DNA of 36,092 nucleotides, taken from the IMG/VR virus record IMGVR_UViG_3300037585_000519, positions 1 to 36,092 of that record, one strand, 5' to 3'. Of this stretch, positions 2,584 through 34,283 are shown one piece after another. The notes below the pieces were generated by a model, which had not been told where the DNA came from, made no database searches, and saw only the letters and a list, made by a program, of their open reading frames with translations. Position numbers and translations under genes: made by a program. Origin of the DNA: a virus. Position 1 is the stretch's first letter, and each line of letters starts with the position of its first letter.

Positions 2584-2812
2584 AGCGGTTGAAGAACTAA
2601 TTAAAGTTGCTAGAGAAGAAATAGTTGATTCAGATGAGGATATATCGGCGGATAGATTAAAGAATGCCGCAGCAACAAAGAAACTAGCTATATTTGATGC
2701 GTTTGAAATATTAAACAGAATCCATGAGGAAGAAAACATGTTAGAGGGTAAACCGATGGAAGAGGAAAAGAAAGTTACTTTCAAGGGATTCGCAGAAGGA
2801 AGATCTAAATAA
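2537..2812 (+). CDS. terS: Putative terminase small subunit
   Basis: 91 residues, almost entirely helical and highly charged: HKAVEELIKVAREEI, then SADRLKNAAATKKLAIFDAF, then EILNRIHEEENM. A basic, Phe/Gly-containing tail follows (KKVTFKGFAEGRSK). There is no readable helix-turn-helix signature. The call rests on size, all-helical nature and position directly before the large terminase, with a one-base TAATG overlap at 2810-2814. Terminase small subunits bind the packaging site and regulate the large-subunit ATPase. The start at 2537 lies 47 bases inside the upstream gene; no internal Met would give a sensible shorter protein. An alternative is a small accessory protein. Confidence 0.5.
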   Translation: MNIKETKKNIIQAGHKAVEELIKVAREEIVDSDEDISADRLKNAAATKKLAIFDAFEILNRIHEEENMLEGKPMEEEKKVTFKGFAEGRSK

Positions 2813-5046
2813 TGTATCAACAAACATTATATAAGGTTGTAGAGCCTATAAAAATAAATACCATTAAAAGGCTTAATAAGGCTAAAAAATGGAAATACGG
2901 TTATAATAAAGAAGCTGATATAGTTTCTATATCTAAAACAGGTCAAATAGGTGAAGTACTAGAAATACAAGGCTTTCAAATAGCCTTACCTAAACAACCA
3001 AAAGAAATATATTGTTGTAGTAAAACACAATCAAAGCAGAAATGGAAACGATTTCCATCTAACTCTGATTTCAAAAGAATTAAAACTGTATTTGATTGGC
3101 AGGATTATCCAGATGATTTTAAAGAAAAACATTACGGATATATAGATGAAGAGTTTAAGAGAAGAGACGAAGGGTTTTGGTTTATGAATAATGGTAAACC
3201 AACATATATAACAGGCACGCACTATATGTACTTACAATGGAGCAAGATTGATGTTGGAGCTCCAGATTATAGAGAGGCAAATAGATTATTCTTTATATTT
3301 TGGGAGGCTTGTAAGGCGGATAAAAGAAGTTACGGAATGTGTTATTTAAAAAATAGACGTTCTGGTTTTTCATTTATGAGTTCAGCTGAAACTGTTAATT
3401 TAGCTACATTAGCTAGTGATAGTAGATTTGGGATACTTTCTAAAACTGGTAGTGATGCAAAGAAAATGTTCACCGACAAAGTAGTACCAATTAGTTTAAA
3501 TTACCCATTCTTCTTCAAGCCAATACAGGACGGTATGGACCGGCCAAAGTCCGAACTCGCTTATAGAGTCCCCGCAAAGAAGTTTACTCGTAAGAAAATG
3601 AGGGAGCGAGAAGAGCAAGATGATATGGAAGGACTTGATACAACTATTGACTGGAAAAATACAGGTGATAATAGTTATGATGGTGAGAAACTTTCACTAT
3701 TAGTACATGATGAAAGTGGTAAATGGGAGAGACCTGATAATATAAAAAATAACTGGAGAGTTACAAAAACTTGTTTAAGACTAGGTAGTAGGGTAGTTGG
3801 AAAATGTATGATGGGATCTACTTCTAACGCATTAGATAAAGGTGGTGATAATTTTAAGAACTTATACAACAATTCAGATGTTACAAAGCGAAATAGAAAT
3901 GGACAGACTAAGTCAGGATTATATTCTTTGTTTATTCCTATGGAATGGAATTACGAGGGTTTCATCGACGAATACGGACAACCTGTATTTAACTCTCCTA
4001 GAGAACAATCATTTGATCCACACGGATTAGAGATAGATTACGGGGTAATAGATCATTGGGAAAACGAAGCTGATGGATTAAGGGATGATCAAGACGCTTT
4101 GAATGAATTCTACCGTCAGTTCCCGAGAACTGAAGAGCACGCTTTTAGAGATGAAACTGGTCATAGTTTGTTTAATCTTATAAAAATATATGAGCAAATA
4201 GATTATAACGAAGGAAATAGAAATTCATCTGTGTTAACACCTGGTAACTTTCAATGGGCTAATGGAGTTAAAGACACTAGAGTAACTTTTAATCCAGATC
4301 CTAAAGGGAGATTTAAAGTAAGTTGGGTACCAAATTTTAAATTACAAAATAATGTTATTTTAAAAAATGGCGCAAAATATCCAGGAAATGAGCATATGGG
4401 TTCTTTTGGTTGTGACTCGTACGATATATCAGGAACAGTGGATGGAGCAGGATCAAAAGGAGCTTTACATGGATTAACAAAATTCTCAATGGAAGATGCT
4501 CCAGCCAACACGTTCTTCTTAGAGTACATAGCAAGACCACAAACGGCTGAAATATTTTTTGAAGATGTTTTAATGTCTTTAGTATTTTATGGAATGCCAA
4601 TACTTGCAGAGAATAATAAACCGAGATTATTATACTATTTACGTAGAAGAGGTTACAGAGGATTTAGTATGAACAGGCCAGACAAGATTTGGAACAAATT
4701 ATCTGTAGCAGAGAAAGAAGTTGGTGGAATACCTAATTCTAGTGAAGATATAAAACAAGCTCATGCTGCTGCAATAGAAATGTATATAAACGATCACGTT
4801 GGATTATTAAAAGATGGTACTTATGGTACAATGTATTTCAACGAAACACTAAATGATTGGTCTAAATTTGATATAAACAAAAGGACTAAGCATGATGCTT
4901 CAATTAGCACTGGGTTAGCAATAATGGCTTGCAACAGACATTTGTATAGACCAAATCCAGATAAGAATAAAAAACCCGTATCAATAAATATATTGAAATA
5001 TAATAATAGAGGATTTCAATCGAAAATAATAAATAATAAAGTATGA
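2812..5046 (+). CDS. terL: Terminase large subunit (packaging ATPase and nuclease)
   Basis: 744 residues. The packaging motor threads genome DNA into the procapsid and cuts it. ATPase part: a deviant Walker A in KNRRSGFSF (R183-S-G-F-S187), a Walker B in LSLLVHDES with D300-E301, and a coupling-motif-like GSTSN at 335-339. Nuclease part, RNase H-like: D535 in FGCDSYD, E600 in ILAENNK and D695 in KHDASIS, in the order expected for the metal-binding acidic triad. The 744-aa length is longer than the usual 450-600; about 100 extra residues precede the ATPase. The start overlaps the small-subunit stop and the stop overlaps the portal start (ATGA at 5043-5046). Family identity is confident; exact residue roles are inferred from spacing. 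Confidence 0.9.
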   Translation: MYQQTLYKVVEPIKINTIKRLNKAKKWKYGYNKEADIVSISKTGQIGEVLEIQGFQIALPKQPKEIYCCSKTQSKQKWKRFPSNSDFKRIKTVFDWQDYPDDFKEKHYGYIDEEFKRRDEGFWFMNNGKPTYITGTHYMYLQWSKIDVGAPDYREANRLFFIFWEACKADKRSYGMCYLKNRRSGFSFMSSAETVNLATLASDSRFGILSKTGSDAKKMFTDKVVPISLNYPFFFKPIQDGMDRPKSELAYRVPAKKFTRKKMREREEQDDMEGLDTTIDWKNTGDNSYDGEKLSLLVHDESGKWERPDNIKNNWRVTKTCLRLGSRVVGKCMMGSTSNALDKGGDNFKNLYNNSDVTKRNRNGQTKSGLYSLFIPMEWNYEGFIDEYGQPVFNSPREQSFDPHGLEIDYGVIDHWENEADGLRDDQDALNEFYRQFPRTEEHAFRDETGHSLFNLIKIYEQIDYNEGNRNSSVLTPGNFQWANGVKDTRVTFNPDPKGRFKVSWVPNFKLQNNVILKNGAKYPGNEHMGSFGCDSYDISGTVDGAGSKGALHGLTKFSMEDAPANTFFLEYIARPQTAEIFFEDVLMSLVFYGMPILAENNKPRLLYYLRRRGYRGFSMNRPDKIWNKLSVAEKEVGGIPNSSEDIKQAHAAAIEMYINDHVGLLKDGTYGTMYFNETLNDWSKFDINKRTKHDASISTGLAIMACNRHLYRPNPDKNKKPVSINILKYNNRGFQSKIINNKV

Positions 5047-7451
5047 TATCAGACGCTCATATAAATTTTCCATCTCAAGCGGTTAGTGATTTAGAAAAAT
5101 TGTCCGAAGATTATGGACTTAAAGTAGCAAAAGCTATAAGACAGGAATGGTTCACTGGAGTTACTTCTAAATTTGACGGTAATATAAATAACTACCATCA
5201 ATTGAGATTGTACGCGAGAGGAGAGCAATCAGTTCAAAAATATAAAAATGAATTATCTATAAATGGTGATTTATCCTACCTTAACTTAGATTGGAAGCCT
5301 GTTCCAATTATTCCTAAATTCGTTGATATAGTCGTTAACGGAATGTCACAAAGAAATTACGAAATAAGCTGCTATGCACAAGACCAGTACGGTGTTAGTA
5401 AAAGAACTGAATACATGGAATCTCTATTAAGAGACATGAGAGCTAAAGATTTCAGTACTTTAGTACAAGAACAATTTGGTATAGATATATCTGAAAATAA
5501 CCCAGAAACTTTACCAGATAATGAAGAAGAGTTAGCTTTACATATGCAAATTGGGTATAAGCAAGCTATAGAAATAGCAGAAGAACAGGCTATAGATGTT
5601 TTAATGGAGAACAGTGATTATGATTTAGTTAGAAGAAGATGTCTTTATGATTTAGTTACATTAGGCATAGGTGCTACTAAAACTACTTTTGACTGGACAG
5701 AAGGTGCTAAAGCGAAATATGTTGATCCAGCTAATTTAGTTTATTCATATACCGAGTCGCCATATTTCGAGGATGTATATTATATTGGTGAAATAAAGGA
5801 AGTGCCAATAAACGAATTAGTAAAAGAATTTCCTGATTTAACGGAAGATGAAATAAAAGAAATAATAGATAACTCTGGTAGAACTGTATATAGTCAAAAT
5901 AATTATAGACTTAACGCGGATAAAAATAAAATTGAAGTGCTCTACTTTAATTACAAAACTCACATGAACGATGTTTATAAATTAAAGACTATGGGTAGTG
6001 GTGCTGAAAAGGTTATTCAAAAAGATGACACGTTTGATCCTCCTGTAGAAAGCATGGATGGAAATTTTCAGAAATTAGAAAGAGTTGTTGAGGTATTATA
6101 CGAGGGCGTGTATTTAATAGGTGCAGATAAATTACTAAAATGGAAAATGGCTGATAACATGATGAGGAGTGATTCTGATTTTGGTAGCGTTAAAATGAAT
6201 TACCAAATAGTAGCTCCTAGAATGTACAAAGGAAAGTTAGAATCTATAGTTAGTAGAATAACTGGTTTCGCAGATATGATACAACTTACTCATTTAAAGT
6301 TACAACAAGTAATGTCAAGAATGGTGCCAGATGGTGTATATCTTGACGTAGATGGTATAGCTGAGGTAGATCTTGGTAACGGAACAAATTATAATCCGCA
6401 AGAGGCTTTAAACATGTTCTTCCAAACTGGTTCTGTTATTGGTAGGAGCTTCACGGGAGACGGAGACGGTAATCCGGCTAAAGTGCCAATTCAACAAATA
6501 CAAAACGGTGGTGGTGGAAATAAAATCCAAAGTTTAATTACTACGTATAACTATTATCTACAAATGATAAGAGATACTACTGGGTTAAACGAAGCAAGAG
6601 ATGCCGCTACTCCAGATAAAAACGCGTTAGTTGGTGTTCAAAAACTAGCAGCTGCAAATTCAAACACCGCGACAAGACATATATTACAATCAATGTTATA
6701 CTTAACAGCGGAGGTGGCAGAGTGTATGTCACTAAGAATATCTGATATTATTGAGTACTCTCCAACTAAAGAAGCATTTATACAAGCTATTGGGGCGCAT
6801 AACGTTGCTACGTTAGAAGAATTAACAGAGTTACATCTTTATGATTTTGGTATATTTATAGAGCTGCTACCAGACGAAGAAGAGAAGGCTATGTTAGAAA
6901 ATAATATACAAGCAGCTATAGCACAACAGTCTATTGATTTAGATGATGCTATAGATTTGCGATCTATAAGAAACGTTAAATTAGCTAATCAACTACTAAA
7001 GGTAAAAAGAAAAGCTAAAATGTCTAAAGATCAAGCAATGCAGCAGCAAAATATCCAAGCACAAGCAGCGGCTAATGCACAACAACAACAAGCGGCGGCT
7101 CAAGCTGAAATGCAAAAAGCTCAAGCTAAAACACAGGCTGAGGCTCAGTTAGAACAAACTAAAAACCAATTGCAAACGCAATTTTTACAAGCTGAGGTTC
7201 AGGCTAAAAAAGAACTAATGCAATTTGAATTTGACTTAAACTCTCAATTAGAAGAATCTAAACAAGACACAGACAAAGAAAAAGAAAATAAAAGAGAAGA
7301 TAGGAAAGATGAAAGAGTTGATAGACAAGCTAATCATCAAATGAACATGATTGAGCAAAGAAAACAGGGTGATGCTGATAAACAATTTGAATCATCAGGT
7401 AATGATATACTTACAGGAGGAGCGGGGACAAATAAATTCTCGCCTTTCTAA
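5043..7451 (+). CDS. Portal protein
   Basis: 802 residues, matching the large portal class of podoviruses and crAss-like phages. The dodecameric portal forms the DNA channel at one capsid vertex and docks terminase and then the tail connectors. Features: a helical N-terminus, a central alpha/beta region, and a conserved-looking stem/crown stretch GLNEARD at 514-520 followed by ATPDKNALVGVQKLAAANS. From residue about 660 to the end there is a long Gln/Ala/Lys/Glu helix region that could form a C-terminal barrel inside the capsid, as in P22, ending in a Gly-rich, flexible tail. It lies between terminase and scaffold, which is the canonical place. I rely on position, size and pattern; no catalytic motif is expected. 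Confidence 0.85.
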   Translation: MISDAHINFPSQAVSDLEKLSEDYGLKVAKAIRQEWFTGVTSKFDGNINNYHQLRLYARGEQSVQKYKNELSINGDLSYLNLDWKPVPIIPKFVDIVVNGMSQRNYEISCYAQDQYGVSKRTEYMESLLRDMRAKDFSTLVQEQFGIDISENNPETLPDNEEELALHMQIGYKQAIEIAEEQAIDVLMENSDYDLVRRRCLYDLVTLGIGATKTTFDWTEGAKAKYVDPANLVYSYTESPYFEDVYYIGEIKEVPINELVKEFPDLTEDEIKEIIDNSGRTVYSQNNYRLNADKNKIEVLYFNYKTHMNDVYKLKTMGSGAEKVIQKDDTFDPPVESMDGNFQKLERVVEVLYEGVYLIGADKLLKWKMADNMMRSDSDFGSVKMNYQIVAPRMYKGKLESIVSRITGFADMIQLTHLKLQQVMSRMVPDGVYLDVDGIAEVDLGNGTNYNPQEALNMFFQTGSVIGRSFTGDGDGNPAKVPIQQIQNGGGGNKIQSLITTYNYYLQMIRDTTGLNEARDAATPDKNALVGVQKLAAANSNTATRHILQSMLYLTAEVAECMSLRISDIIEYSPTKEAFIQAIGAHNVATLEELTELHLYDFGIFIELLPDEEEKAMLENNIQAAIAQQSIDLDDAIDLRSIRNVKLANQLLKVKRKAKMSKDQAMQQQNIQAQAAANAQQQQAAAQAEMQKAQAKTQAEAQLEQTKNQLQTQFLQAEVQAKKELMQFEFDLNSQLEESKQDTDKEKENKREDRKDERVDRQANHQMNMIEQRKQGDADKQFESSGNDILTGGAGTNKFSPF

Positions 7452-21436: not shown

Positions 21437-22354
21437 ATGGCAACAATTAAAAGACACGAAGATTCACCTTTTAAAATATGGATGCAGTTAGCTGGTGTAG
21501 CTGGCGCCGTGTTTAAGGGTATATCAGCTCATAAAACCGCTAAAAAAGCAGAAGGTTTAGAAGCTGACGCAAAGTTAGCAAGAGATACATTTAGAGAGGA
21601 TCTAGCAAATATGAATATGACTAATCCATTTGAAGGTATGCAAAACCAATTTGCTGGTATGGAAAATACTATGGAAGATTTAACTGTTAATCAGAAAGAA
21701 GCAGAATTTGCATCTCAACAATTTGCACAAAGTCAATCTAACATTATGTCTGGATTAAGAGGGGCAGCTGGTGGTAGTGGTATAGCGGCACTAGCGCAAC
21801 AACTAGCTCAACAAGGCCAAATAGCTGCACAGAAATCAGCGGCTGGTATTGGTCAACAAGAGGCAGGTAATCAAATGGCTATGGCTAAAGAAGCTAGTAG
21901 TATACAAACAAGAGAAAGACAAGGTGCCACGGATGTTGCTAGACAAATAGCTGCTGGCGAACAAACGGCGCAAATGCAGAATATGCAAAAAACAAAAGCT
22001 TTACTTCAAGATGCTTCTTCAGAATACCAGCACTATCAAAAACAAGCTGCTGAGGCAAATGCTATGAAAAATGAAGCTATTGGACAAGCTCTCCCACAGG
22101 CTATCCCATTGATACCTAAGATAGGGGAGGCCCTTGGTTTATCTGATAGAAGATTTAAAAAGAATATTAAATTAATAGGTAAATCTGCTAGTGGTCTAAA
22201 TATATATGCTTTTGAGTATATAAACGAACTATTAGGAAAAGGAATTTATCAAGGTGTCATGTCTGATGAGGTACCAGTTAACGCTGTTATAAATAATGGT
22301 GAGTATGATATAGTAGATTACTCTAAACTAGACGTAGAATTTAAACAAATATAA
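21437..22354 (+). CDS. Putative internal core/ejection protein with S74-like C-terminus
   Basis: 305 residues. Residues about 13-30 (MQLAGVAGAVFKGISAH) form a short hydrophobic helix. Residues 35-225 are one long Ala/Gln/Met/Glu-rich helical region (for example GLRGAAGGSGIAALAQQLAQ), the composition of T7 gp14-type core proteins that are ejected first and cross the outer membrane. From 235 to the end, SDRRFKKNIKLIGKSASGLN, YAFEYIN and YQGVMSDEVP resemble the intramolecular chaperone of phage tail spikes (Peptidase_S74 type), in shortened form. It is preceded by the second promoter-like element and begins the probable ejection operon. The S74-like match is by eye, and the ejection role is inferred from gene order. 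Confidence 0.6.
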   Translation: MATIKRHEDSPFKIWMQLAGVAGAVFKGISAHKTAKKAEGLEADAKLARDTFREDLANMNMTNPFEGMQNQFAGMENTMEDLTVNQKEAEFASQQFAQSQSNIMSGLRGAAGGSGIAALAQQLAQQGQIAAQKSAAGIGQQEAGNQMAMAKEASSIQTRERQGATDVARQIAAGEQTAQMQNMQKTKALLQDASSEYQHYQKQAAEANAMKNEAIGQALPQAIPLIPKIGEALGLSDRRFKKNIKLIGKSASGLNIYAFEYINELLGKGIYQGVMSDEVPVNAVINNGEYDIVDYSKLDVEFKQI

Positions 22355-23396: not shown

Positions 23397-26300
23397 ATGG
23401 AAGAAAAAAAACTATATATACACAACGGTGTAGAGCACGAGATAACAGCTGAAGAAGAGGCGGATTGGCTATTAGAGCATGATGGTGCTACACTGAAAAA
23501 TGATACTAAAGAAATATCCGTTGAAAATACGTTAAATGAAACCGGTGAAGAAAATATAAACACTGATGTCGTTAAAGAAGAAGAAGAAGAAATTGAAGAA
23601 GATAAAAACGAAGAAATCGAAGACGGTACCCAAGAGATAAATCAATCTCAAGATAATCTTGATATCCAAGATGATCTAATTCAAAAAGAATTTACAGATA
23701 AAGAAATAATAGAACAAGACAAGCGTTCAAGAAGCGAAAGCTACACAGGTCCGTTAGCTCATGAAGTTATAGGTGGTGATCATAATACTTATTTAAATAG
23801 TAGGCCAGATATAATGTTACACGCGGGCAATGCTGATGATTGGTTTAAACACGCTATCGAAAATGGGCTACCGTTAGATGGTAAAGATGGACGTGCAGAC
23901 GAGTTTATATTAAACATGGTTTATAACAAAGGTTATGGTTTTAATCCAACCGACCCGCGTAATGCTGTTCAAAAAAATGTGGATCCTGATACCAACGAAA
24001 TACTATGGAGCGTAAAGATACCTAGTAATTCTAGAGAAACTACTAAAAAATTAATTGAAACCCATAAAAAAAATAAACTAGAAAATACAGATCTTCAAGA
24101 TAAGATTAAAGAACAAAGAGAGGAAAAAGAATGGGACAATATTAAAAAAAGTACAAAAGAAGCTGCAGATTGGAAAAGTAATTATTTTGAAGAAAAAATA
24201 CAATTAGAAAATACTTATGAGCCCATAAATATAAAAAGTAGTATAAAAGGAAATTTAGCAGAAACTGAATTTGGAAATGTTGATGAAATACTAACGTATG
24301 ATAACGCTAAGCAGTGGTTTGATAATAGGAGTTACTTTGTTGACGAATATTTTAAAGATCAAAAAGGTGCCGATATCGCTATGTTTAAAAGTAGGGAAGA
24401 TGGATCAAAAATTGCACTTTATAATGATGATGAATTTTATAACAGACAGGATGAGGTTAAAGAAAAAATTATGTCTGGTAAGTACGGATATAATCCGCAT
24501 GAAGATAGATTATATTTATTATCAGAAGATGATCAAGTCAGCGTTAGCAAGGAGGATAAACTATTAGGGTCTAAAGAATATGGTGAGTCTTTATCTTTGA
24601 GGCAGATGAACAATGACATGCTTAAGTCCAATCCTAATTACGAATCTTTTGTAGATAATCCGGGTTCAAGTCCTAGAATAGTAAGTCCTCAATTTTTTAC
24701 TTTATCTGAAACAGAGACTATAAAGAAGCTTCAACAACATTATTTTAAACATGGCTTTCAATTTCAGCAAGATAATTGGAAGGGTTCTGCGGTTAAAATT
24801 ATAAAACCCGGTGGTGATAAAGATGGAATTGAGGGGAGGGATTATATTGTAGTTCCAACTAATTACGCAAGTAAGACTAAATCTGGCGCTATAGAAAATG
24901 CTAATAAAGTTAATGATTGGATAGCAGAGCATGCTACATACGGCACCTCGGAATTAGATATTGTTCTAGAAAGGGTTAGGGAAGATATAGGCGCGGAAGT
25001 TGTGAACGGTAAAATTGAAATGGAGAGAGTGCATAACGCCGTTAACTATCTCGATGAATTAAAAGAAGCTTGGGGAATGTCTAGCAAAACAGACCATGAG
25101 GTATTAGATTTGTATGCTCAGATTAACGCTCAATATTTAGATGATAAAGGTACTTTTCACATCTTAGATGGTAAAATGTTAGGATGGAGAAACGGCTTGA
25201 TATACGACGAAATAGGTAGTAGCAAAGCTGCTGAACTTTGGAAATTACTTCCAGATGAATTCAAAACGGGAAGTAAATCCAAAATGACGCAGTATCGTAG
25301 GGAACTAGCTTTAGTAGTAGAGGGCCAAAACCAGTATATTGATCAGATAGTTCTAAGTGCATACATAAAACAACATCATAAGTATAAAGGTGACGAAGCC
25401 GCTTTCTATAAAGATCATGACACTGACACCGAGGATGGAAGAAAGGCTTTAAATAAAGCAATGGGGAGTTCTGACTTCAGATATCTTAAAAAGAGAATAC
25501 TCACTGATTCAAAAGGGGTGAGTAATCCAAAATTAGCACAAAAATATAGAGATATATTTAAACAAATAGATTTTGGTATAGCGGATAATTTTGGTAGACA
25601 ACTTGCTAATGAAACTCTTTATATTGAAGATTTCGAAGAAGAATTAAGAAGTGATATAATATTTCTTTCAGATAATTGGTGGAATAAAGCTGATATACAA
25701 AAAAAATTATTTAGTGAATCTAAAGTTGATTTAAAAGAAGTAAAGGAAGAAAACGCTAATCTTATAGTTGATATTAAAAATACTAGTGTAAAAATAGAAG
25801 ATACTATAAATGAATTAACGCCTATAATGACTTCTATTGATACTATTCAAAAAGATACAGAAAGATTTGCTATGATATCGGCTATAGCAAATGAATACGG
25901 GGCTACTAATATGAATAACTTAGCAACTAATGAGGCTGCTATGATGAGGATAGCTAATGTAGATCCTGAGTTTGCTAAGGAACTATTAACATATAATGTT
26001 AAATTAAATGAAATAATTGCTTTAGAAAAACTTTATAGGGATAAGAACACCGAAATTGAAGAGGGATCTTTAAATGAATCTGAGTTAATGTTGCTTTCTG
26101 ATGGTTTAAAACGAAATCATGAACCAGGTACTGTTTTTGTAAAAGGAGCTTGGAATAGTACTGTTGATGCCGTTCAAATGCTGACTTTAGATTTAGCAGA
26201 TTTATATTTAAATATAAGTTTAGATATAGCTGGTGGGAAAAATAATCTAAGAGGTAGAGATGATAAATTAATAAAAGCGTACATACAGGCGAGTGATTAC

Positions 26301-29300
26301 TTAGAACAAGAAAGTGCTAGATGGGACGAAAAGCAAGCTGATTACAGATCAACTTGGAGAAAAAGTAAAGATTTTAATAGTATATCTAGTTTAAGTGACG
26401 TAGGTGATTGGTTAACTCACTTTGCTGGTGAACAAGCTGCTAATACAGTTTTGGTGGTAGCAACAGGTGGTTACGCTCCGATTATTTTATCTACTCAATC
26501 TGGAACAGGTAAATGGAGAGAACTTACTACAGAGAGAAATTTATACTTTCAAACAGGTGGGGAGCAGGGTCAAGATCACGGTGGTTGGAGTATGTATGGT
26601 AACGTTGCTTTAACAGCATTAAGTGAATATGCTTTTGAAAAGTTTATTACTCTACCTATTGTTAATAACGCAAAAAAAGCTAGAAATTTAGGTAAGTTTG
26701 GATTTGATAATGGTTTAAAAACAAATATATTTGACACTAAAAGTATAGCCTTAAGCATGGGTATTTATACTGGTGATACATTCCTTGAGGGTCTTGGTGA
26801 AGGATTAACTCAATTCACTAGTAACTGGGCTGATATATATCTTAGTGGTATGAAAGATGTTCATATTTATGATGGCGTGGATGAGTCTTTTGCTAGCGGT
26901 ATAGTGATGACAAATGCTTATAAGTCTCCATCAATGGCGAACAAAATGATGAGTCCATTTAGAACTAAAGATTACAACCAGAAGGTGGGTGAAAATGAAA
27001 CTAAAATACTAAACCTAATTAATCAAGTTAAAAATAGGTTTGATGAAAATGGTTTCACATCAGCTAGCGCTAACACTACGACTACTTTTAAAAATGGAGA
27101 AGTAGTTAGCCAACCAATTAGTGAAACAAATGCTACTGACGCTCCCGCTTATGAAATAAATGGAAAAAGTGTTACTAAGGAAGAAATGGTAAAGTTTGTT
27201 TTAGACGGTGGACTTAAAGGAGAAGATGGAAGTTTTAGTGTAAGTAATGATATACAAGTTCAAGACTTGATAAATGCTGACCCTGATTCCAAAAAGCAAT
27301 TAGCTCAAATAATAGAGTTAACAGACAAAAATTATGAGTTATTACAGAATGAAATAAAAAGGATTGATGTTTTATCTAATGCCGAGAAAAAAGAATTAAT
27401 CACTTTAGATAAAGAAGATTTCTTGGCTAGAAAGATGGGTGACGATATAATGCTAAATGACAAATTAAGCGATAAGGAGAAAGAGCTTCAAATGGCTAAA
27501 ATTCAGGAAGAGGTTGATGCAAGGGCTGATCAAAGAGATGCGATATTAAATAAATATACTCAAGCAGATATAGATAAAAAACATCAAGAAATATTACAAA
27601 CCATGAACGAAACTTTGAAAGAAGCTGAGTTAATGGGGGCTCCAAAAGTTGTTATTAAAACTTTAAATCAAAAAGATTATGCGGAAGAAGTAAAAAAATA
27701 TAAAGAAAATAATGAAGGTTTAGATAGCAAGGAATTAGAAAACATTGCTTCTGAAAAAGAAGGTATTGTACAAGGATTAAATGAAATAATCAATGACAAG
27801 AATTCTACACCAGAAGAGATACAAGACGCTAGGGAAAAATTAAAAAATCCAGAGTCGGTTGTTAATATAGCTAGTAATATATTAAACAATAGCGATTATG
27901 GTGTTATGCAGCCTAAGTTTGATAAAGATGGTAATATATCTGACATGGCTATATTAATGAATAGAGACGCAGCTATTGAAGATGGAAGATTCAACGAATT
28001 AAGTCATGAGTTCGTACATGCTACTTTTGCGAATACTTTAAAATTTGATCCTAAGGCGAGGGAGGTTTTAGGTGATCAGCTACAAGAAATATTAACAGGT
28101 GATGATGTAGTTTTTTCGTCTAGAAGAAAAGCTAATGAATTTAATAAAAGGGTAAACTCATATGATCCTAATCTTAGAGGTGAAGAAGGTCTAGCAATAA
28201 TTTCTCAAATGATGATGGATGGGGATGTTAAATTTAAAACTAGTGCTTTACAAAAATCTAAAGATGTTTTTAGAAGATACTCTCAAGATTATCTTAACGC
28301 ACCTATAGCATTTAATAAAAGTAATGATATTAAAAACTTTTTAAAAGATTATCATTATTCTATAAAAAATAACAAACCAAGTAAAGCTATAGCTAAAATG
28401 TTGGCTAAAGGAGCTAATGGCAAAATGTTTAAAAATGCCAAAACTCCAGCCGATAGAAAAAACATGAGCATGTTCAGTGAGTCTTCTGCTGTGTGGATGA
28501 AAAATAACCCGAAGATAGTAAATAAATATGATCAGCACACTAGAAACGAAGATGGTTCTAAAAAATATAAAAACAAAAAAGAGTGGAAAGAAAAAGGTGA
28601 AGCTGATAATGTTGCTGTATGGCAATATATTATGGACTCTGGTAAAGGCTCTTTAGATAGTAGGATATTAGAAGAACAAGGTGGTTTTGATCCTAAAGGA
28701 TTACCTTTTGAAGTACAGCAAGATTATATGAGAAAAGTAAAAACCGAACTTCAAATGAGGTGGTTAAAAAACTTTGATCCTAAAGAAAATAATAGTGCAG
28801 CAGGTTATTTGTTTGGAAAAAATGGTATATTATACTGGGCAAAACAAACTGTTCAAAAAGATTATTTTGACAAAGAAGGTGGTACAGATAAACGTTCTTT
28901 AGATAGGCAAACATCTGATGGTCAAAGTTACGCTGATGTTATAGAAGCTGAAAAAGAATCTATATATGATGAGATAGATAATGCAGATTTATCTGTTACA
29001 GCTAAAAAGGCTAATAAAGATATGTTAGATGATCTTATAATGGTAATGGATCTATTTGGTTTACCTAATAAAGTTAAAAAAGCTGTTGAGAACAACGTGA
29101 AAGAAACATACATACCTTTAGATATTATAACTGATCCTAATGCTAAATTTAGTACCTACAAAAATATAAAAAAATTATTAGTAGAAAAAGAGTTTGACCC
29201 TAAAGTACTAAATCCAAAAACAGGTAAGCAAGCAAAATCCGAAAAAGCTGTTATTCCAACTGGGCCTTTATTTGAAACATTAAATGCTATATCTTCTGAT

Positions 29301-32300
29301 TTTGGAGTTGATCCACTTAGAATATTAGCTAATCAAAACTTAGATGATAATCAAAGAAAATTAGCGCAAGGATGGATATTTGATAAGGCCGTAAATGAAG
29401 ATGGTACACTTAATAATAACGTAATAAACGCTTTACCTGAAGGAGCTGATAGAAGTGGTAGAGCAACTGGCCTTTCTAAAAAACTACTTGAGGCATTTTA
29501 TATTAAAGGAGGTAGAGCTGAATTTGCTGGAGGAGCTACAGCATCTGGACTTGCTACACAAACAAAAAGAACTAATATAACTAAAGAAGAATTTTTAAAT
29601 ACGTTCGGGATAAATCCAGATGGTTCTTTACAACCTGGAACAGATGCTGATGGTGCCATTAATCAATATGTAGTACAAGTAGCCACGTTAGCCGCTATTC
29701 AAGAGGTAACAATGAATACTATAGAAAATGAATTAGCTCAAGCTAATATTATAGCTAGACTTAACGAGGGTAAAGGGGAGCAGGTATTTAGTAAAAGATT
29801 TGAACAGGTAGAAAACTTTATTCAAGATGATTTTCAAGGTGGTGAGTTTATAGGTAAAGATCACGTTTTAAAAATACATGGTTTACCTAAAACTTTTAAA
29901 ATAAAATCCAAAAAAGATATAAAAACGTATATTCATAATTTAAAAACCTCTGTACTACCATTATTACCAAAAGAGGCTTGGTTTGGACCTAGAGAAGGAA
30001 CCGCATTTACTAGTAATGCTAGGCATTATTTTGATTCTTCAAGTAATCCTTTGTGGCCAGTGTTAATGAAAGAAATACAAAAATTAAAAAACGATAAATC
30101 AATAAAATACGGAAAGCCTATACCTGGTGTAAAAGCAAGTGAAATATGGTCACTTAGAAATCAATTTAGTAGTTTGTTTAAAAACCCTGAAACATTAAGA
30201 AATAACAAGGAGAAAATAAAAAAGTTTAATAATAATGTAGGTGCTATACATAAAGCTCTTTGGGTGAGAATAAATGAAGCTATAAAAAAAGATAGAACTA
30301 TTGCTCCGCATATAGCACATTATTTAGGATTAGTTGCTAATGACACTAAGAACTGGCATAAACTAGGGGCGCAAGCCGTGGGGTTTTCTAAAAAAATAAC
30401 TGGAGCTAGATACGAATTAGAGCATGCAATGCCCGCTACTAGTGCTTATTTGTATTTATTAAATTCTTCTTTAGCTCCTGATATAGATTTTAATACTGCA
30501 TATGATTTAGTTATTGATAACTATAAGTTAATAGCGTTAGATAAAGCTATGGACACTAAGTTGAGAGATGCTAGAACTTTAAGTGGGTTTAGTTTACAAA
30601 GAAGAATGCCTGATAACTGGAGCGTTGTGGATGGAAAATTTTGGCAAAGGTATTTTAACAATATAGTAGAAGCTATAGACGGTGGAATAGATCCTAATTC
30701 TATAGAAATGCTTGATGGTAGAACTATGGCTGAAACGTTTAATATTAACGCTAGTGGTGATATAAGAATAGCTGAATCGTTTTCTAAAAGAAAAGCAAAA
30801 GAAACTATAAACGACGCTTTTAGTGCTAAGATAAGTAACGCTGTAAATAGTACAATAAAAGGAATGTCTACCTTTGATTTTGATGATACATTGGCTAGAA
30901 CTAAATCAGGTATTAGATATACTATACCAAATAATACTGGCAAACCAATGCCTGGAAAGAAAGTTATATTCTTAGCTGGTAGTGCTGGTAGTGGTAAATC
31001 AAACGTTGTAAAACAATTAGGTTTAGAAGCACAAGGATTTAAGATGGTTAATCAAGATATATCATTAGAATGGTTAGCTAAAAATAGTGGATTACCTACA
31101 GATATGAGAGATTTTACACCTGAGCAGGCTAGCAAGTGGGGAGAGTTACAATGGGAGGCTAGGGACATAGCACAGCGTAAAGCGACTAAATTTAAGGGTA
31201 GAGGTGACGGTGTTGTTGTAGATGGTACTGGGGCTAGTACTATATCAATGTCTACTCAAGTGCAAAAATATAAAGATGCTGGTTACGACGTTCAAATGTT
31301 ATTCGTAGAAAGCTCTTTAGAAACAGCATTAGAAAGAAATAAAGCTAGACAAGAAAGATCATTAAAAGATTTTATAGTTGAGCGTAATTGGAAAGCTGTT
31401 CAAAAAAATAAAAAAGCTTTTAAAGAAGAGTTTGGTAATAATTTTGCAGAAGTAAATACCAATAAATTAAAACAAGGAGATCCAATGCCTAAAACTCTTG
31501 TAAATAAAATAAATGATTTTACCACAGGTTATATTAAAGGTAGGTTAACAGCTGAAGAGTTTGCCAATAAAGGTGATAATTTATTACAGCAAGGTGCTGA
31601 ATTTGATTTTTCAGAATTTAATAAAGTTGTTGATGGAACACCAGGGCCGTTACTTCAAAAAGCTAGAAATAGAGCTGAAAAATATGGTACTAAAGATATG
31701 TTTGTTTTAACAGCTAGGCCACAAGCCTCTGCTTTTGCTATACAGCAATTCTTAAAAGGCCAAGGGTTAGATATACCAATAAAAAATATAACTGGTTTAG
31801 CTAATAGCACTGGTAACGCTAAAGCTCAATGGATGTTAGAAAAATTTGCAGAAGGATATAATGATATGTACTTTGTTGACGACGCTTTGCAAAATGTTAA
31901 AGCTGTTAAAAAAGTATTAGATCAATTAGACATCAAGTCTAACGTCGTCCAAGCATTTAGTAAAAGAATAAATGATTCTAACTTAGAATTTAATAAAATT
32001 ATCGAACGTAGAAAAGGAGTTAAGGCTGAAAAAGTTTTTTCTTCAGCTGAGGCAAGGAAAAGAGGGTCTCAACCTAATATTGCTAGATTTATAAAAAGTC
32101 TTTATATACCACCTTCTGCTGAGGACTTTAAAGGATTATTATATTATTTCTTAGGTAAAGGAAAACAAGGTGATGCTGATATGAGATTTTTTGCTGATAA
32201 CTTATTGACCCCTTTTGCTAAAGGAATTAAAGCTTGGAATTCTTATAAGCAAAACATGGTTAATGATTATAAGGCTTTAAAAAAAGAATTCCCTAAAGTT

Positions 32301-34283
32301 AAAAAGAATTTAAATAAAAAAATACCAGGAACAAGTTTTACAAATGACACAGCTGTGAGGGTTTACTTGTGGAGCAAAGCTGGTTTTGATATACCAGGTA
32401 TATCTAAATCTTTGCAACAAACCTTAGTTAATCACGTAAATAACAATTCAGATATAAAATCTTTTGCAGAGAGCTTATCTATTATAACTAAAAGAAAAGA
32501 TGGATATATTAAGCCTAATGAAAACTGGATGATGGAGGCTATACCATCAGATTTAAGAAATGTTGTAGATAAAATTGGTAGAAAAGAATTCTTAGAAGAA
32601 TGGATAGAAAATAAAAATATAATATTTTCTCCAGAAAACTTAAATAAAGTAGAAGCTTTATATGGTGGTAGATTTTTAGAGTCATTAGAAGACATATTAT
32701 ATCGTATGGAAAATGGTGGCAATAGATCACGAGGTAAGGACAGCGATGTTAATTGGTTTACTAATTGGATAAATGGTTCTGTTGGCGCTATTATGTTCTT
32801 TAATATGAGATCAGCTGTATTACAGACTATATCTACTGTTAACTTTATTAATTGGTCAGATAATAATATGTTTAAAGCATCCGCTGCTTTTGCTAATCAA
32901 CCTCAATTTTGGAAAGACTTTGTGAAACTGTTTAATTCTGATCAATTAAAACAAAGAAGAGGTGGATTACAAACGGATGTATCAGCATCAGAGTTAACTA
33001 AAACCTTTGCTGAAAAAGGATATAGTCCTCAGACTGTTATAAATCATTTACTTCAATTTGGTTTTAAACCCACACAACTTGCAGATAGTTTTGCTATTGC
33101 CTTTGGTGGAGCTACGTTTTATAGAAATAGATACAATAAGTATATAAAAGAAGGTATGTCTAAGTCCGCGGCTCAGGATCAAACAATGCTAGACTTTCAA
33201 GAGATAGCTGAGGAAACACAACAATCGTCAAGAGAAGATTTAATATCACAACAACAAGCAAGTGTATTAGGTAGAATAGTACTAGCTTTCCAAAACGTTA
33301 CAATGCAGTACGGTAGATTAACTAAAAAATCTTTGTCAGACTTAATTAACGGTAGGGGTGATTGGAAAACTAATGTATCTAAAATAGCTTACTATGGTAT
33401 GGTACAAAATATAGTTTTCTCAGCTTTACAAAATGCTTTAGCGTTTTTAATATGGGGCGATGAGGAAGATGAGTTGATAGAGGATAAAACAACTAGAACT
33501 TTAAATAGCACGTTAGATTCTTTCTTAAGAGGTACTGGTTTATATGGAGCGTTAGCATCAACTCTTAAGAACACAGTCGTGCAATGGGAAAACCAAAAAG
33601 ATAAAGAATGGGGTAAAGAACGAATAGAAAAAATAGCTCTTGAGGTTGTGAACCTTTCTCCACCTATTGGAAGTAAGGTTAGGAAAATAGTTAATGCTTA
33701 TTATGCAGATGCTTGGAACGAGGGGGTGTCAGAAGAATTAGGTTGGAGAATTGAAAATCCTAAATTAACTATGAGCGCAAATATCATAGAGGCTTTATTT
33801 AACGTCCCAATAGCTAGAATACAAAATAAAGCTAATAATTTAGAAGAAGCTATAACAGGTAACCATGAGACGTGGAAAAGAGTTTTATTAGCTCTTGGGT
33901 GGAGTAGATGGGATTTGGGTATTAAAGATGAAGAACTAGAAGAGGCTAAAGATGAAGCAAAAATAAAAAATCAAGAAAAGAAAAAAGAAGAGAAAAAAAT
34001 AGAAAAAGAAAAAGAAAAGGAAATTGAAGAAAAAGAAAAAGAAGAGAAAGGAATTAAAACTGTTCAATGCTCTGGCGTTGGATCTAGTGGTCAAAGATGT
34101 GGTAATACTACTGAGACAGCAGAAAAAACTTGGAAGTGTTATCATCATATGGATTTTGAAGATGGTATGGATAGAGATGGTGATGGAATCAAAGAATATA
34201 GATGTACGGCTATAAAAAGTAATGGTGATAGATGCAAGAACAAAACTGAGAATGAGAGCAAAAAATGTTATGCTCACCAATAA
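23397..34283 (+). CDS. Giant multidomain (polyvalent) virion/ejection protein
   Basis: 3628 residues, nearly a third of the window. In order: acidic low-complexity N-terminus (1-110); hydrophobic segment at about 1012-1033 and a FLEGLGEGLTQF motif at 1129-1140 in a membrane-prone region; HEFVH at 1537-1541 with E1596/E1597 downstream, a zincin metallopeptidase pattern; FDPKENN at 1793-1799 and SLDRQTSDG at 1834-1842, reminiscent of sigma-70 regions 2 and 3; HAD motif I DFDDT at 2494-2498; P-loop GSAGSGKS at 2528-2535 with D2554, VVVDGTG (D2609) and arginines 2647, 2651, 2654; HAD motif II T2772, Lys 2809, motif IV D2828-D2829; SVLGRIVLAFQN at 3289-3300, like PLxRFG/LPD38 tails; Lys/Glu stalk 3514-3555; and two Cys3His motifs (3558-3584, 3603-3627). 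By position it matches the T7 gp16 ejection protein. Domain calls are from motifs; the ejection role is inferred. Confidence 0.8.
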   Translation: MEEKKLYIHNGVEHEITAEEEADWLLEHDGATLKNDTKEISVENTLNETGEENINTDVVKEEEEEIEEDKNEEIEDGTQEINQSQDNLDIQDDLIQKEFTDKEIIEQDKRSRSESYTGPLAHEVIGGDHNTYLNSRPDIMLHAGNADDWFKHAIENGLPLDGKDGRADEFILNMVYNKGYGFNPTDPRNAVQKNVDPDTNEILWSVKIPSNSRETTKKLIETHKKNKLENTDLQDKIKEQREEKEWDNIKKSTKEAADWKSNYFEEKIQLENTYEPINIKSSIKGNLAETEFGNVDEILTYDNAKQWFDNRSYFVDEYFKDQKGADIAMFKSREDGSKIALYNDDEFYNRQDEVKEKIMSGKYGYNPHEDRLYLLSEDDQVSVSKEDKLLGSKEYGESLSLRQMNNDMLKSNPNYESFVDNPGSSPRIVSPQFFTLSETETIKKLQQHYFKHGFQFQQDNWKGSAVKIIKPGGDKDGIEGRDYIVVPTNYASKTKSGAIENANKVNDWIAEHATYGTSELDIVLERVREDIGAEVVNGKIEMERVHNAVNYLDELKEAWGMSSKTDHEVLDLYAQINAQYLDDKGTFHILDGKMLGWRNGLIYDEIGSSKAAELWKLLPDEFKTGSKSKMTQYRRELALVVEGQNQYIDQIVLSAYIKQHHKYKGDEAAFYKDHDTDTEDGRKALNKAMGSSDFRYLKKRILTDSKGVSNPKLAQKYRDIFKQIDFGIADNFGRQLANETLYIEDFEEELRSDIIFLSDNWWNKADIQKKLFSESKVDLKEVKEENANLIVDIKNTSVKIEDTINELTPIMTSIDTIQKDTERFAMISAIANEYGATNMNNLATNEAAMMRIANVDPEFAKELLTYNVKLNEIIALEKLYRDKNTEIEEGSLNESELMLLSDGLKRNHEPGTVFVKGAWNSTVDAVQMLTLDLADLYLNISLDIAGGKNNLRGRDDKLIKAYIQASDYLEQESARWDEKQADYRSTWRKSKDFNSISSLSDVGDWLTHFAGEQAANTVLVVATGGYAPIILSTQSGTGKWRELTTERNLYFQTGGEQGQDHGGWSMYGNVALTALSEYAFEKFITLPIVNNAKKARNLGKFGFDNGLKTNIFDTKSIALSMGIYTGDTFLEGLGEGLTQFTSNWADIYLSGMKDVHIYDGVDESFASGIVMTNAYKSPSMANKMMSPFRTKDYNQKVGENETKILNLINQVKNRFDENGFTSASANTTTTFKNGEVVSQPISETNATDAPAYEINGKSVTKEEMVKFVLDGGLKGEDGSFSVSNDIQVQDLINADPDSKKQLAQIIELTDKNYELLQNEIKRIDVLSNAEKKELITLDKEDFLARKMGDDIMLNDKLSDKEKELQMAKIQEEVDARADQRDAILNKYTQADIDKKHQEILQTMNETLKEAELMGAPKVVIKTLNQKDYAEEVKKYKENNEGLDSKELENIASEKEGIVQGLNEIINDKNSTPEEIQDAREKLKNPESVVNIASNILNNSDYGVMQPKFDKDGNISDMAILMNRDAAIEDGRFNELSHEFVHATFANTLKFDPKAREVLGDQLQEILTGDDVVFSSRRKANEFNKRVNSYDPNLRGEEGLAIISQMMMDGDVKFKTSALQKSKDVFRRYSQDYLNAPIAFNKSNDIKNFLKDYHYSIKNNKPSKAIAKMLAKGANGKMFKNAKTPADRKNMSMFSESSAVWMKNNPKIVNKYDQHTRNEDGSKKYKNKKEWKEKGEADNVAVWQYIMDSGKGSLDSRILEEQGGFDPKGLPFEVQQDYMRKVKTELQMRWLKNFDPKENNSAAGYLFGKNGILYWAKQTVQKDYFDKEGGTDKRSLDRQTSDGQSYADVIEAEKESIYDEIDNADLSVTAKKANKDMLDDLIMVMDLFGLPNKVKKAVENNVKETYIPLDIITDPNAKFSTYKNIKKLLVEKEFDPKVLNPKTGKQAKSEKAVIPTGPLFETLNAISSDFGVDPLRILANQNLDDNQRKLAQGWIFDKAVNEDGTLNNNVINALPEGADRSGRATGLSKKLLEAFYIKGGRAEFAGGATASGLATQTKRTNITKEEFLNTFGINPDGSLQPGTDADGAINQYVVQVATLAAIQEVTMNTIENELAQANIIARLNEGKGEQVFSKRFEQVENFIQDDFQGGEFIGKDHVLKIHGLPKTFKIKSKKDIKTYIHNLKTSVLPLLPKEAWFGPREGTAFTSNARHYFDSSSNPLWPVLMKEIQKLKNDKSIKYGKPIPGVKASEIWSLRNQFSSLFKNPETLRNNKEKIKKFNNNVGAIHKALWVRINEAIKKDRTIAPHIAHYLGLVANDTKNWHKLGAQAVGFSKKITGARYELEHAMPATSAYLYLLNSSLAPDIDFNTAYDLVIDNYKLIALDKAMDTKLRDARTLSGFSLQRRMPDNWSVVDGKFWQRYFNNIVEAIDGGIDPNSIEMLDGRTMAETFNINASGDIRIAESFSKRKAKETINDAFSAKISNAVNSTIKGMSTFDFDDTLARTKSGIRYTIPNNTGKPMPGKKVIFLAGSAGSGKSNVVKQLGLEAQGFKMVNQDISLEWLAKNSGLPTDMRDFTPEQASKWGELQWEARDIAQRKATKFKGRGDGVVVDGTGASTISMSTQVQKYKDAGYDVQMLFVESSLETALERNKARQERSLKDFIVERNWKAVQKNKKAFKEEFGNNFAEVNTNKLKQGDPMPKTLVNKINDFTTGYIKGRLTAEEFANKGDNLLQQGAEFDFSEFNKVVDGTPGPLLQKARNRAEKYGTKDMFVLTARPQASAFAIQQFLKGQGLDIPIKNITGLANSTGNAKAQWMLEKFAEGYNDMYFVDDALQNVKAVKKVLDQLDIKSNVVQAFSKRINDSNLEFNKIIERRKGVKAEKVFSSAEARKRGSQPNIARFIKSLYIPPSAEDFKGLLYYFLGKGKQGDADMRFFADNLLTPFAKGIKAWNSYKQNMVNDYKALKKEFPKVKKNLNKKIPGTSFTNDTAVRVYLWSKAGFDIPGISKSLQQTLVNHVNNNSDIKSFAESLSIITKRKDGYIKPNENWMMEAIPSDLRNVVDKIGRKEFLEEWIENKNIIFSPENLNKVEALYGGRFLESLEDILYRMENGGNRSRGKDSDVNWFTNWINGSVGAIMFFNMRSAVLQTISTVNFINWSDNNMFKASAAFANQPQFWKDFVKLFNSDQLKQRRGGLQTDVSASELTKTFAEKGYSPQTVINHLLQFGFKPTQLADSFAIAFGGATFYRNRYNKYIKEGMSKSAAQDQTMLDFQEIAEETQQSSREDLISQQQASVLGRIVLAFQNVTMQYGRLTKKSLSDLINGRGDWKTNVSKIAYYGMVQNIVFSALQNALAFLIWGDEEDELIEDKTTRTLNSTLDSFLRGTGLYGALASTLKNTVVQWENQKDKEWGKERIEKIALEVVNLSPPIGSKVRKIVNAYYADAWNEGVSEELGWRIENPKLTMSANIIEALFNVPIARIQNKANNLEEAITGNHETWKRVLLALGWSRWDLGIKDEELEEAKDEAKIKNQEKKKEEKKIEKEKEKEIEEKEKEEKGIKTVQCSGVGSSGQRCGNTTETAEKTWKCYHHMDFEDGMDRDGDGIKEYRCTAIKSNGDRCKNKTENESKKCYAHQ

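Follow-up and report, generated by a model that had tools for sequence, protein, structure and literature searches.

Can a complete kinase sit inside a phosphatase domain, and what would such an enzyme do for a phage? The question arises from the virus record IMGVR_UViG_3300037585_000519, whose whole length of 36,092 bases is the window analyzed here. A preliminary description of this DNA had placed a whole P-loop kinase between motifs I and II of one HAD phosphatase, in contrast to T4 polynucleotide kinase-phosphatase (Pnkp), where the kinase is followed by the phosphatase. It had suggested either an end-healing 5′-kinase/3′-phosphatase or a zeta-toxin-like kinase that its own phosphatase keeps in check.

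One HAD domain split by a P-loop kinase

Both enzymes are encoded in a single ORF, with the following layout (residue numbers are those of the ORF product):

23397..34283, + strand: giant ORF P0001, 3628 aa, carrying the kinase and the HAD domain
30861..30932, + strand: first part of the HAD domain, residues 2489-2512, with the motif I strand D2494-F-D-D-T2498 and the first strand of the flap hairpin
30945..31526, + strand: inserted P-loop kinase, approximately residues 2517-2710, with the P-loop GSAGSGKS at 2528-2535, D2554, D2609 and the lid arginines R2647, R2651 and R2654
31530..31952, + strand: second part of the HAD domain, residues 2712-2852, with the second flap strand at 2712-2718, motif II T2772-A-R2774, K2809 and motif IV D2828-D2829

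Every residue named in the preliminary description is in place in this frame, and HAD motifs I (DxDxT), II (T/S), III (Lys) and IV (DD) are all present and in order. The HAD residues D10, D12, T14, T288, R290, K325, D344 and D345 (numbered within the segment, where D10 is D2494) are the same in every one of the 68 aligned rows, which include relatives with the nested kinase and relatives that have the same HAD domain without it. The kinase residues K50, D70, D125, R163, R167 and R170 (K2534, D2554, D2609, R2647, R2651 and R2654) do not vary either: they are identical in all 41 rows of one nested set and in all 53 rows of the distinct nested set. Across 154 distinct HAD segments motif I reads DxDx followed by T or C and motif IV reads DD, in a set collected with a pattern that itself demanded Asp-x-Asp and the terminal Asp. 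Because the motifs are invariant in both kinds of relatives, and the same HAD occurs without an insert, motif I is part of the same domain as motifs II-IV, and the kinase interrupts this domain as an insertion of about 200 residues. The alignments and structure models together show one HAD domain split by a kinase, as had been proposed; the contrasting possibility, that the two HAD halves do not form one domain, fails on the existence of the uninterrupted relatives. A chance arrangement of short motifs is ruled out by the invariance and the empty-site relatives, and a frameshift or assembly artifact by the occurrence of the same nested frame in 55 distinct segments, including the window. At the sequence level, the catalytic residues of both domains are shown to be kept under purifying selection; in pairwise comparisons of the window with nine close relatives, dN/dS ranges from 0.06 to 0.13 in the kinase and from 0.09 to 0.15 in the HAD domain.

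Structure models were built from alignments of 68 rows and 27 rows chosen among the loci found. For the window segment, AlphaFold2 predicts strands at segment residues 5-10, 21-27 and 228-234 (pLDDT 86.4, pTM 0.72) and places the kinase between the second and the third. In the model of the kinase-less relative L061 (pLDDT 75.8, pTM 0.66), strands 21-25 and 31-35 are joined by a short turn. The accessible text of PMC12632274 describes C0 and C1 caps as insertions between the two strands of the flap. As the modeled kinase is flanked by the two strands of the flap hairpin, its predicted insertion point at the tip of that hairpin is the C1-cap position. In this position the kinase and phosphatase active sites may make contact. 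HAD caps determine substrate choice, and the naturally occurring nested, tandem and empty-site versions make it possible to test directly how nesting affects the kinase and phosphatase. In the literature searched we found no description of a kinase-in-HAD arrangement, nor of a HAD cap that is itself an enzyme with a separate active site.

Nested, tandem and kinase-less relatives

Relatives were pooled from four scans of viral contigs and one of genomes, each giving its best 80 matches; the first viral contig scan yielded the best 80 of 219 relatives. Among the matches listed there are 154 distinct HAD segments: 55 nested (window included), 96 uninterrupted without a detected kinase and 3 tandem, counts that describe these matches and are not population frequencies. 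Kinase absence was judged within limited flanks of each locus, so a distant kinase could escape. The 96 uninterrupted segments take in two stand-alone HADs of the jumbo-phage type (L005/L256 and L257/L258), and two loci (L090 and L184) were left outside all three classes. Four of the 80 loci of the first scan (L025, L035, L045 and L053) missed the strict motif pattern and were called nested by a looser one. The distance from DFDxT to TAR is bimodal, with 282-288 residues in nested and 82-85 in uninterrupted segments, and nothing in between.

In the tandem loci (L059, L060 and L073) an intact HAD domain is followed in the same ORF by a kinase that is 59-63% identical to the window kinase. Quick trees with SH-aLRT support only were calculated for both domains. 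The three tandem kinases form one starred branch within a starred group that holds 37 nested kinases, and the HADs of the same loci fall inside the kinase-less group (support 98, starred). Since the two trees disagree, the kinase domain appears, on sequence grounds, to have moved to a new place among related phages. That the two domains recur together in more than one order would argue for a shared pathway. Three changes are needed on the HAD tree, at least two of them forced by starred branches, with 43 of the 99 inner branches open. Rooting this tree on the stand-alone jumbo-phage HAD L005 failed; that branch has a length of 10, so kinase gain and loss are not separable there. Kinase-less L061, L062, L089 and L092 are placed near kinase-bearing rows, and L089 shares 69% identity over about 700 residues past the EGYN motif with nested L050 and L044. 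These placements and the L089 similarity hint at clean loss or replacement of the kinase.

Two weakly similar segments flank the tandem kinase (L059:8500-9200, L060:8500-9200 and L073:8550-8840), possibly a duplicated linker; their identity, 8-9 of about 25 residues, is too little to decide on a target-site duplication. Stand-alone relatives of the inserted kinase, labeled hypothetical, occur in the Methylophilales myophage Melnitz (L002:2947-3615) and in a Pelagibacter myophage (L004:2944-3612), and in Melnitz the gene lies a few genes past a baseplate wedge gene. Stand-alone HADs with motif I DLDDC or DVDDT in large uncultured phages (L005:2908-3468, L257 and L258) are distant relatives of the window HAD. 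The L061 HAD has no tblastn match in 50,697 phage records. A public viral entry labeled 'UDP-N-acetylglucosamine kinase' is 66% identical to it over 136 columns, so related sequences have already been deposited.

The giant protein and its genomic setting

The window holds the structural module of a phage, with terminase, portal and other virion proteins. The features outside the kinase-phosphatase segment are:

2812..5046, + strand: terminase large subunit
5043..7451, + strand: portal protein
21437..22354, + strand: gene resembling a phage DNA ejection protein family (phrog_4287, E 2e-10)
23397..30848, + strand: hypervariable N-terminal part of the giant protein, residues 1-2484, from tiling against relatives
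28005..28019, + strand: HEFVH, residues 1537-1541, a candidate zincin-type metallopeptidase motif
31953..34280, + strand: constant C-terminal part of the giant protein, from tiling against relatives

The terminase shares 63% identity with that of MW202828, an uncultured Manatee Spring podovirus, and about 46% with those of elemo-group Flavobacterium phages; there are further matches to phages of Cellulophaga, Tenacibaculum and Maribacter. These Bacteroidota-type matches make a Bacteroidota host likely, as far as terminase similarity can tell.

We tiled the giant protein against 49 nested and 27 other giant ORFs, which represent 76 of the 80 loci of the first scan. Tiles starting at residues 2401-3401 match 45-49 of the 49 nested relatives (45-47 for tiles 2901-3401), compared to only 0-21 for tiles starting at 1-2301. 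The other relatives are matched by tiles 2701-3401 in 24-27 of 27 cases (24-26 for tiles 2901-3401) and by tiles 1-2301 in 0-5. Conservation of the HAD-kinase segment partly reflects the selection of relatives by that very segment, a bias from which the C-terminal 750 residues are free. The sequence comparisons thus show the same two domains, nested, in tandem or as HAD alone, heading the constant C-terminal part of a giant protein. A sharp border separates the variable N-terminal 2,480 residues from the conserved part that begins with the HAD domain (30849-34280). That the domain pair marks this border in a giant phage protein makes delivery by the phage at entry a testable question. The last tile matches 36 of the 49 nested and 7 of the 27 other relatives, and at the extreme C-terminus (34068-34280) lie two Cys-rich repeats that resemble each other, both ending in C-Y-x-H, which may form a metal-binding tail. 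The C-terminal part of the giant protein has no tblastn match in 50,697 phage records.

HExxH occurs in 72 of the 76 giant ORFs (mean 2.0 and maximum 7 after shuffling), in most of them about 1,000 residues ahead of the HAD domain. The giant protein has no Pfam peptidase match, the HExxH region included. The accessible text of PMC5512222 describes polyvalent proteins of phages and conjugative elements as encoded near virion genes and proposes their processing by metallopeptidases. The window protein is likewise very large and multidomain, is encoded beside the virion genes, and carries a candidate metallopeptidase motif; it differs in that neither a HAD phosphatase nor a kinase within a HAD is described in that text. 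From the gene context, including the ejection-protein-like gene that is the last but one upstream of the giant ORF, we infer a polyvalent protein that is packed into the virion and leaves it along with the DNA. The product of that upstream gene ends in SDRRFKKNIK...GLNIYAFEY, a C-terminus that may resemble an intramolecular chaperone. The giant protein of MW202828 shows no blastp match to that of the window at 1e-3. This 3,859-aa protein of the structural module (L170:142-11721) has two HExxH motifs and is labeled 'reticulocyte binding/rhoptry protein', probably a misannotation. A PADLOC search gave nothing beyond matches at E 0.0015-0.003.

Candidate functions of the kinase and phosphatase

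Two Pfam families, PF13671 (AAA_33) and PF06414 (Zeta_toxin), match the kinase above their cut-offs, with AAA_33 scoring higher. Among solved structures (VIA), the kinase model is closest to the kinase of Clostridium thermocellum Pnkp (Z 17.6, rmsd 2.8, 167 residues aligned), followed by O-phosphoseryl-tRNA kinase (PSTK; Z 16.4) and zeta toxin (Z 14.5). T4 Pnkp gives Z 14.6 with both domains aligned (rmsd 21.5), and its kinase domain 1ly1 gives Z 14.5 (rmsd 2.4). Foldseek rows span both domains of T4 Pnkp and Pnkp1. Searching PDB sequences with the with-kinase profile gave a weak best match, shikimate kinase at E 0.019.

The HAD domain leans the same way. The kinase-less model matches HAD-fold proteins over residues 1-154 at a middling level (Z 7-9), with Pnkp1 residues 174-300 at Z 9.0, tied with the C-terminal domain of Nir2 (8.7) and a class C acid phosphatase (8.1). 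In Foldseek the HAD alone has no HAD match under E 1e-3, and FakB proteins rank first. Among 27 kinase-less HADs, 12 match the 'polynucleotide kinase' family phrog_415, the best at E 9e-5. In a library of viral models the HAD matches giant proteins of uncultured viruses and a Caudovirales protein of 283 aa. Weaker matches there are a polynucleotide kinase/phosphatase from a Hafnia phage (E 0.059) and a Swiss-army-knife HAD (E 0.42). The kinase-less profile finds mammalian PNKP at a non-significant E of 0.87-1, and its match to T4 Pnkp is negligible; ResA matches, ahead of PNKP in the PDB search (E 0.026), were taken as spurious. Structural comparison thus places the kinase nearest to polynucleotide kinase, while the match of the HAD to Pnkp1 is weak and tied with those to other proteins.

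T4 Pnkp and the bacterial Pnkp1 of Capnocytophaga gingivalis are the obvious comparison. They too combine a P-loop kinase and a HAD phosphatase in one polypeptide, share the R-N-x-x-R lid and the DxDxT, S/T-x-R, Lys and DD motifs, and are among the best or near-best structural matches, but their kinase precedes the HAD domain instead of being nested between motifs I and II. D2554 aligns with the general-base Asp35 of T4 Pnkp and is present in 53 of 53 nested rows. In a gap-free extension of this alignment, the place of T4 Arg38 (T4 residues 35-38 are DDYR) is taken by Leu2557 in the window and by Leu in all 53 rows. In T4 Pnkp, Arg38 contacts the acceptor and is functionally important. Sequence similarity to T4 Pnkp is marginal, and the P-loop, which in the window fits GxxGxGK followed by Ser or Thr, reads GKG in 25 of the 53 nested relatives. 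On account of this Gly and the invariant Leu we do not claim membership in the PNKP family, and judge the protein to be a kinase-phosphatase of new arrangement made of domains already known. The order in mammalian PNKP is HAD and then kinase, the order also seen in the three tandem relatives; mammalian PNKP differs from the window protein in the absence of nesting and in length and context. According to the available part of PMC7824862, jumbo phages encode PNK-HAD and Swiss-army-knife HAD phosphatases that act in RNA repair, and one of these families is as a rule joined to a polynucleotide kinase. Those proteins have the kinase at the N-terminus or lack it, whereas here it is nested or C-terminal, in a giant protein of the structural module.

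End healing is the most likely single reading and a plausible leading one for the predicted enzyme. Three findings favor it: the top matches of the kinase are polynucleotide kinases, the HAD domain leans likewise, and an ATP-dependent DNA ligase (PF01068) is found in 11 of the 24 longer records of relatives. Judging from these records, which are possibly fragments, ligase presence does not follow the kinase (nested 8/14, tandem 0/2, HAD-only 3/8). RtcB was found in 0 of the 24, and the matches to the RNA-repair ligase candidate PF09414 (5/24 records) each lie at the place of a PF01068 match and were therefore read as the same DNA ligase. Pnkp1 acts in the repair of ribotoxin-cleaved RNA, as stated in the available text of PMC4411300. 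The end-healing proposal of the preliminary description is made plausible by the nearest structural neighbors of the kinase and by a weak PNKP-phosphatase likeness of the HAD, and is weakened by the residue at the Arg38 place and the P-loop Gly.

In an end-healing scheme, the giant protein would be carried in the virion and delivered with the DNA. Soon after entry the HAD domain would remove 3′-phosphates from broken nucleic-acid ends, the kinase would phosphorylate their 5′-OH groups, and a ligase would then seal the healed ends. As a cap over the phosphatase entrance, the kinase could gate it or share its substrate. The full statement, a phosphatase capped at the C1 site by a polynucleotide-kinase-like kinase in a virion-borne polyvalent protein and acting in end healing, is held tentatively, at a little short of an even chance. 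Its more ambitious version is doubtful: a movable, catalytic C1-cap kinase in an interlocked enzyme with two active sites, which related phages would have reshuffled into nested, tandem and kinase-less forms and which would travel in the virion and mend cut DNA or RNA ends at entry.

The similarity searches also bear on a different substrate. The pair could act on a small molecule or nucleotide, for example as a nucleoside or metabolite kinase with a 5′-nucleotidase-like HAD, and serve nucleotide metabolism or counter-signaling instead of polynucleotide ends. The kinase model matches adenylate and UMP/CMP kinases at Z 13-14.5, and the matches of the HAD model at Z 7.7-8.1 are class C acid phosphatases, Haemophilus influenzae e(P4) among them. 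Some viral HAD relatives with this fold are labeled with cytidyltransferase or deaminase domains, and the Leu in place of the PNK arginine suits such a role. Polynucleotide kinase nevertheless ranks first among solved structures, and no nucleotide-specific NCBIfam family scores above its curated cut-off. We regard this explanation as unlikely.

Zeta-toxin and AAA_33 kinases, including genes of Pelagibacter phage HTVC008M and Methylophilales phage Melnitz, have the same kinase fold. The phage genes are 35-38% identical in the kinase and differ in being single-domain ORFs of about 220 residues with no HAD motif I within the ORF. The known zeta toxin forms a two-gene unit with an epsilon-type antitoxin, unlike the window kinase inside one ORF. 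A zeta-like kinase of UDP-sugars or nucleotide sugars could attack cell-wall precursors at entry, with the HAD domain as brake or partner. This would agree with the PF06414 scores of 34.5 and 37.6 bits against a curated cut-off of 22.3, with the 'UDP-N-acetylglucosamine kinase' label of the public viral relative, and with the accessible text of PMC5512222, in which zeta-like kinases of polyvalent proteins act on peptidoglycan precursors. However, AAA_33 outscores Zeta_toxin, and zeta chains rank behind both polynucleotide kinase and PSTK (Z 14.5 versus 17.6 for polynucleotide kinase). As 96 of the 154 distinct segments among the matches listed keep the HAD without a detected kinase, the HAD domain is not there merely to restrain the kinase. 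The self-controlled zeta-toxin-like kinase first suggested is weakly supported, by its family likeness; we consider a cell-wall role quite improbable.

The P-loop Gly of 25 of the 53 relatives could also mean that the segment is degraded or structural, a scaffold in a virion protein with little or no enzyme activity, and its position, leading the constant part of a giant protein of virion type, would fit this. The four HAD motifs, the kinase Lys, both Asp and all three Arg are invariant, however, and a dN/dS of 0.06-0.15 also argues for function over scaffolding, so that this reading is improbable. Adenylate kinases also carry Gly at the P-loop Ser/Thr place. In the window (30978-31001) and its relatives, Ser/Thr or Gly at this place partly covaries with residue 2553, Gly occurring with Ser in 20 of 53 rows and Ser with Gln in 19 of 53.
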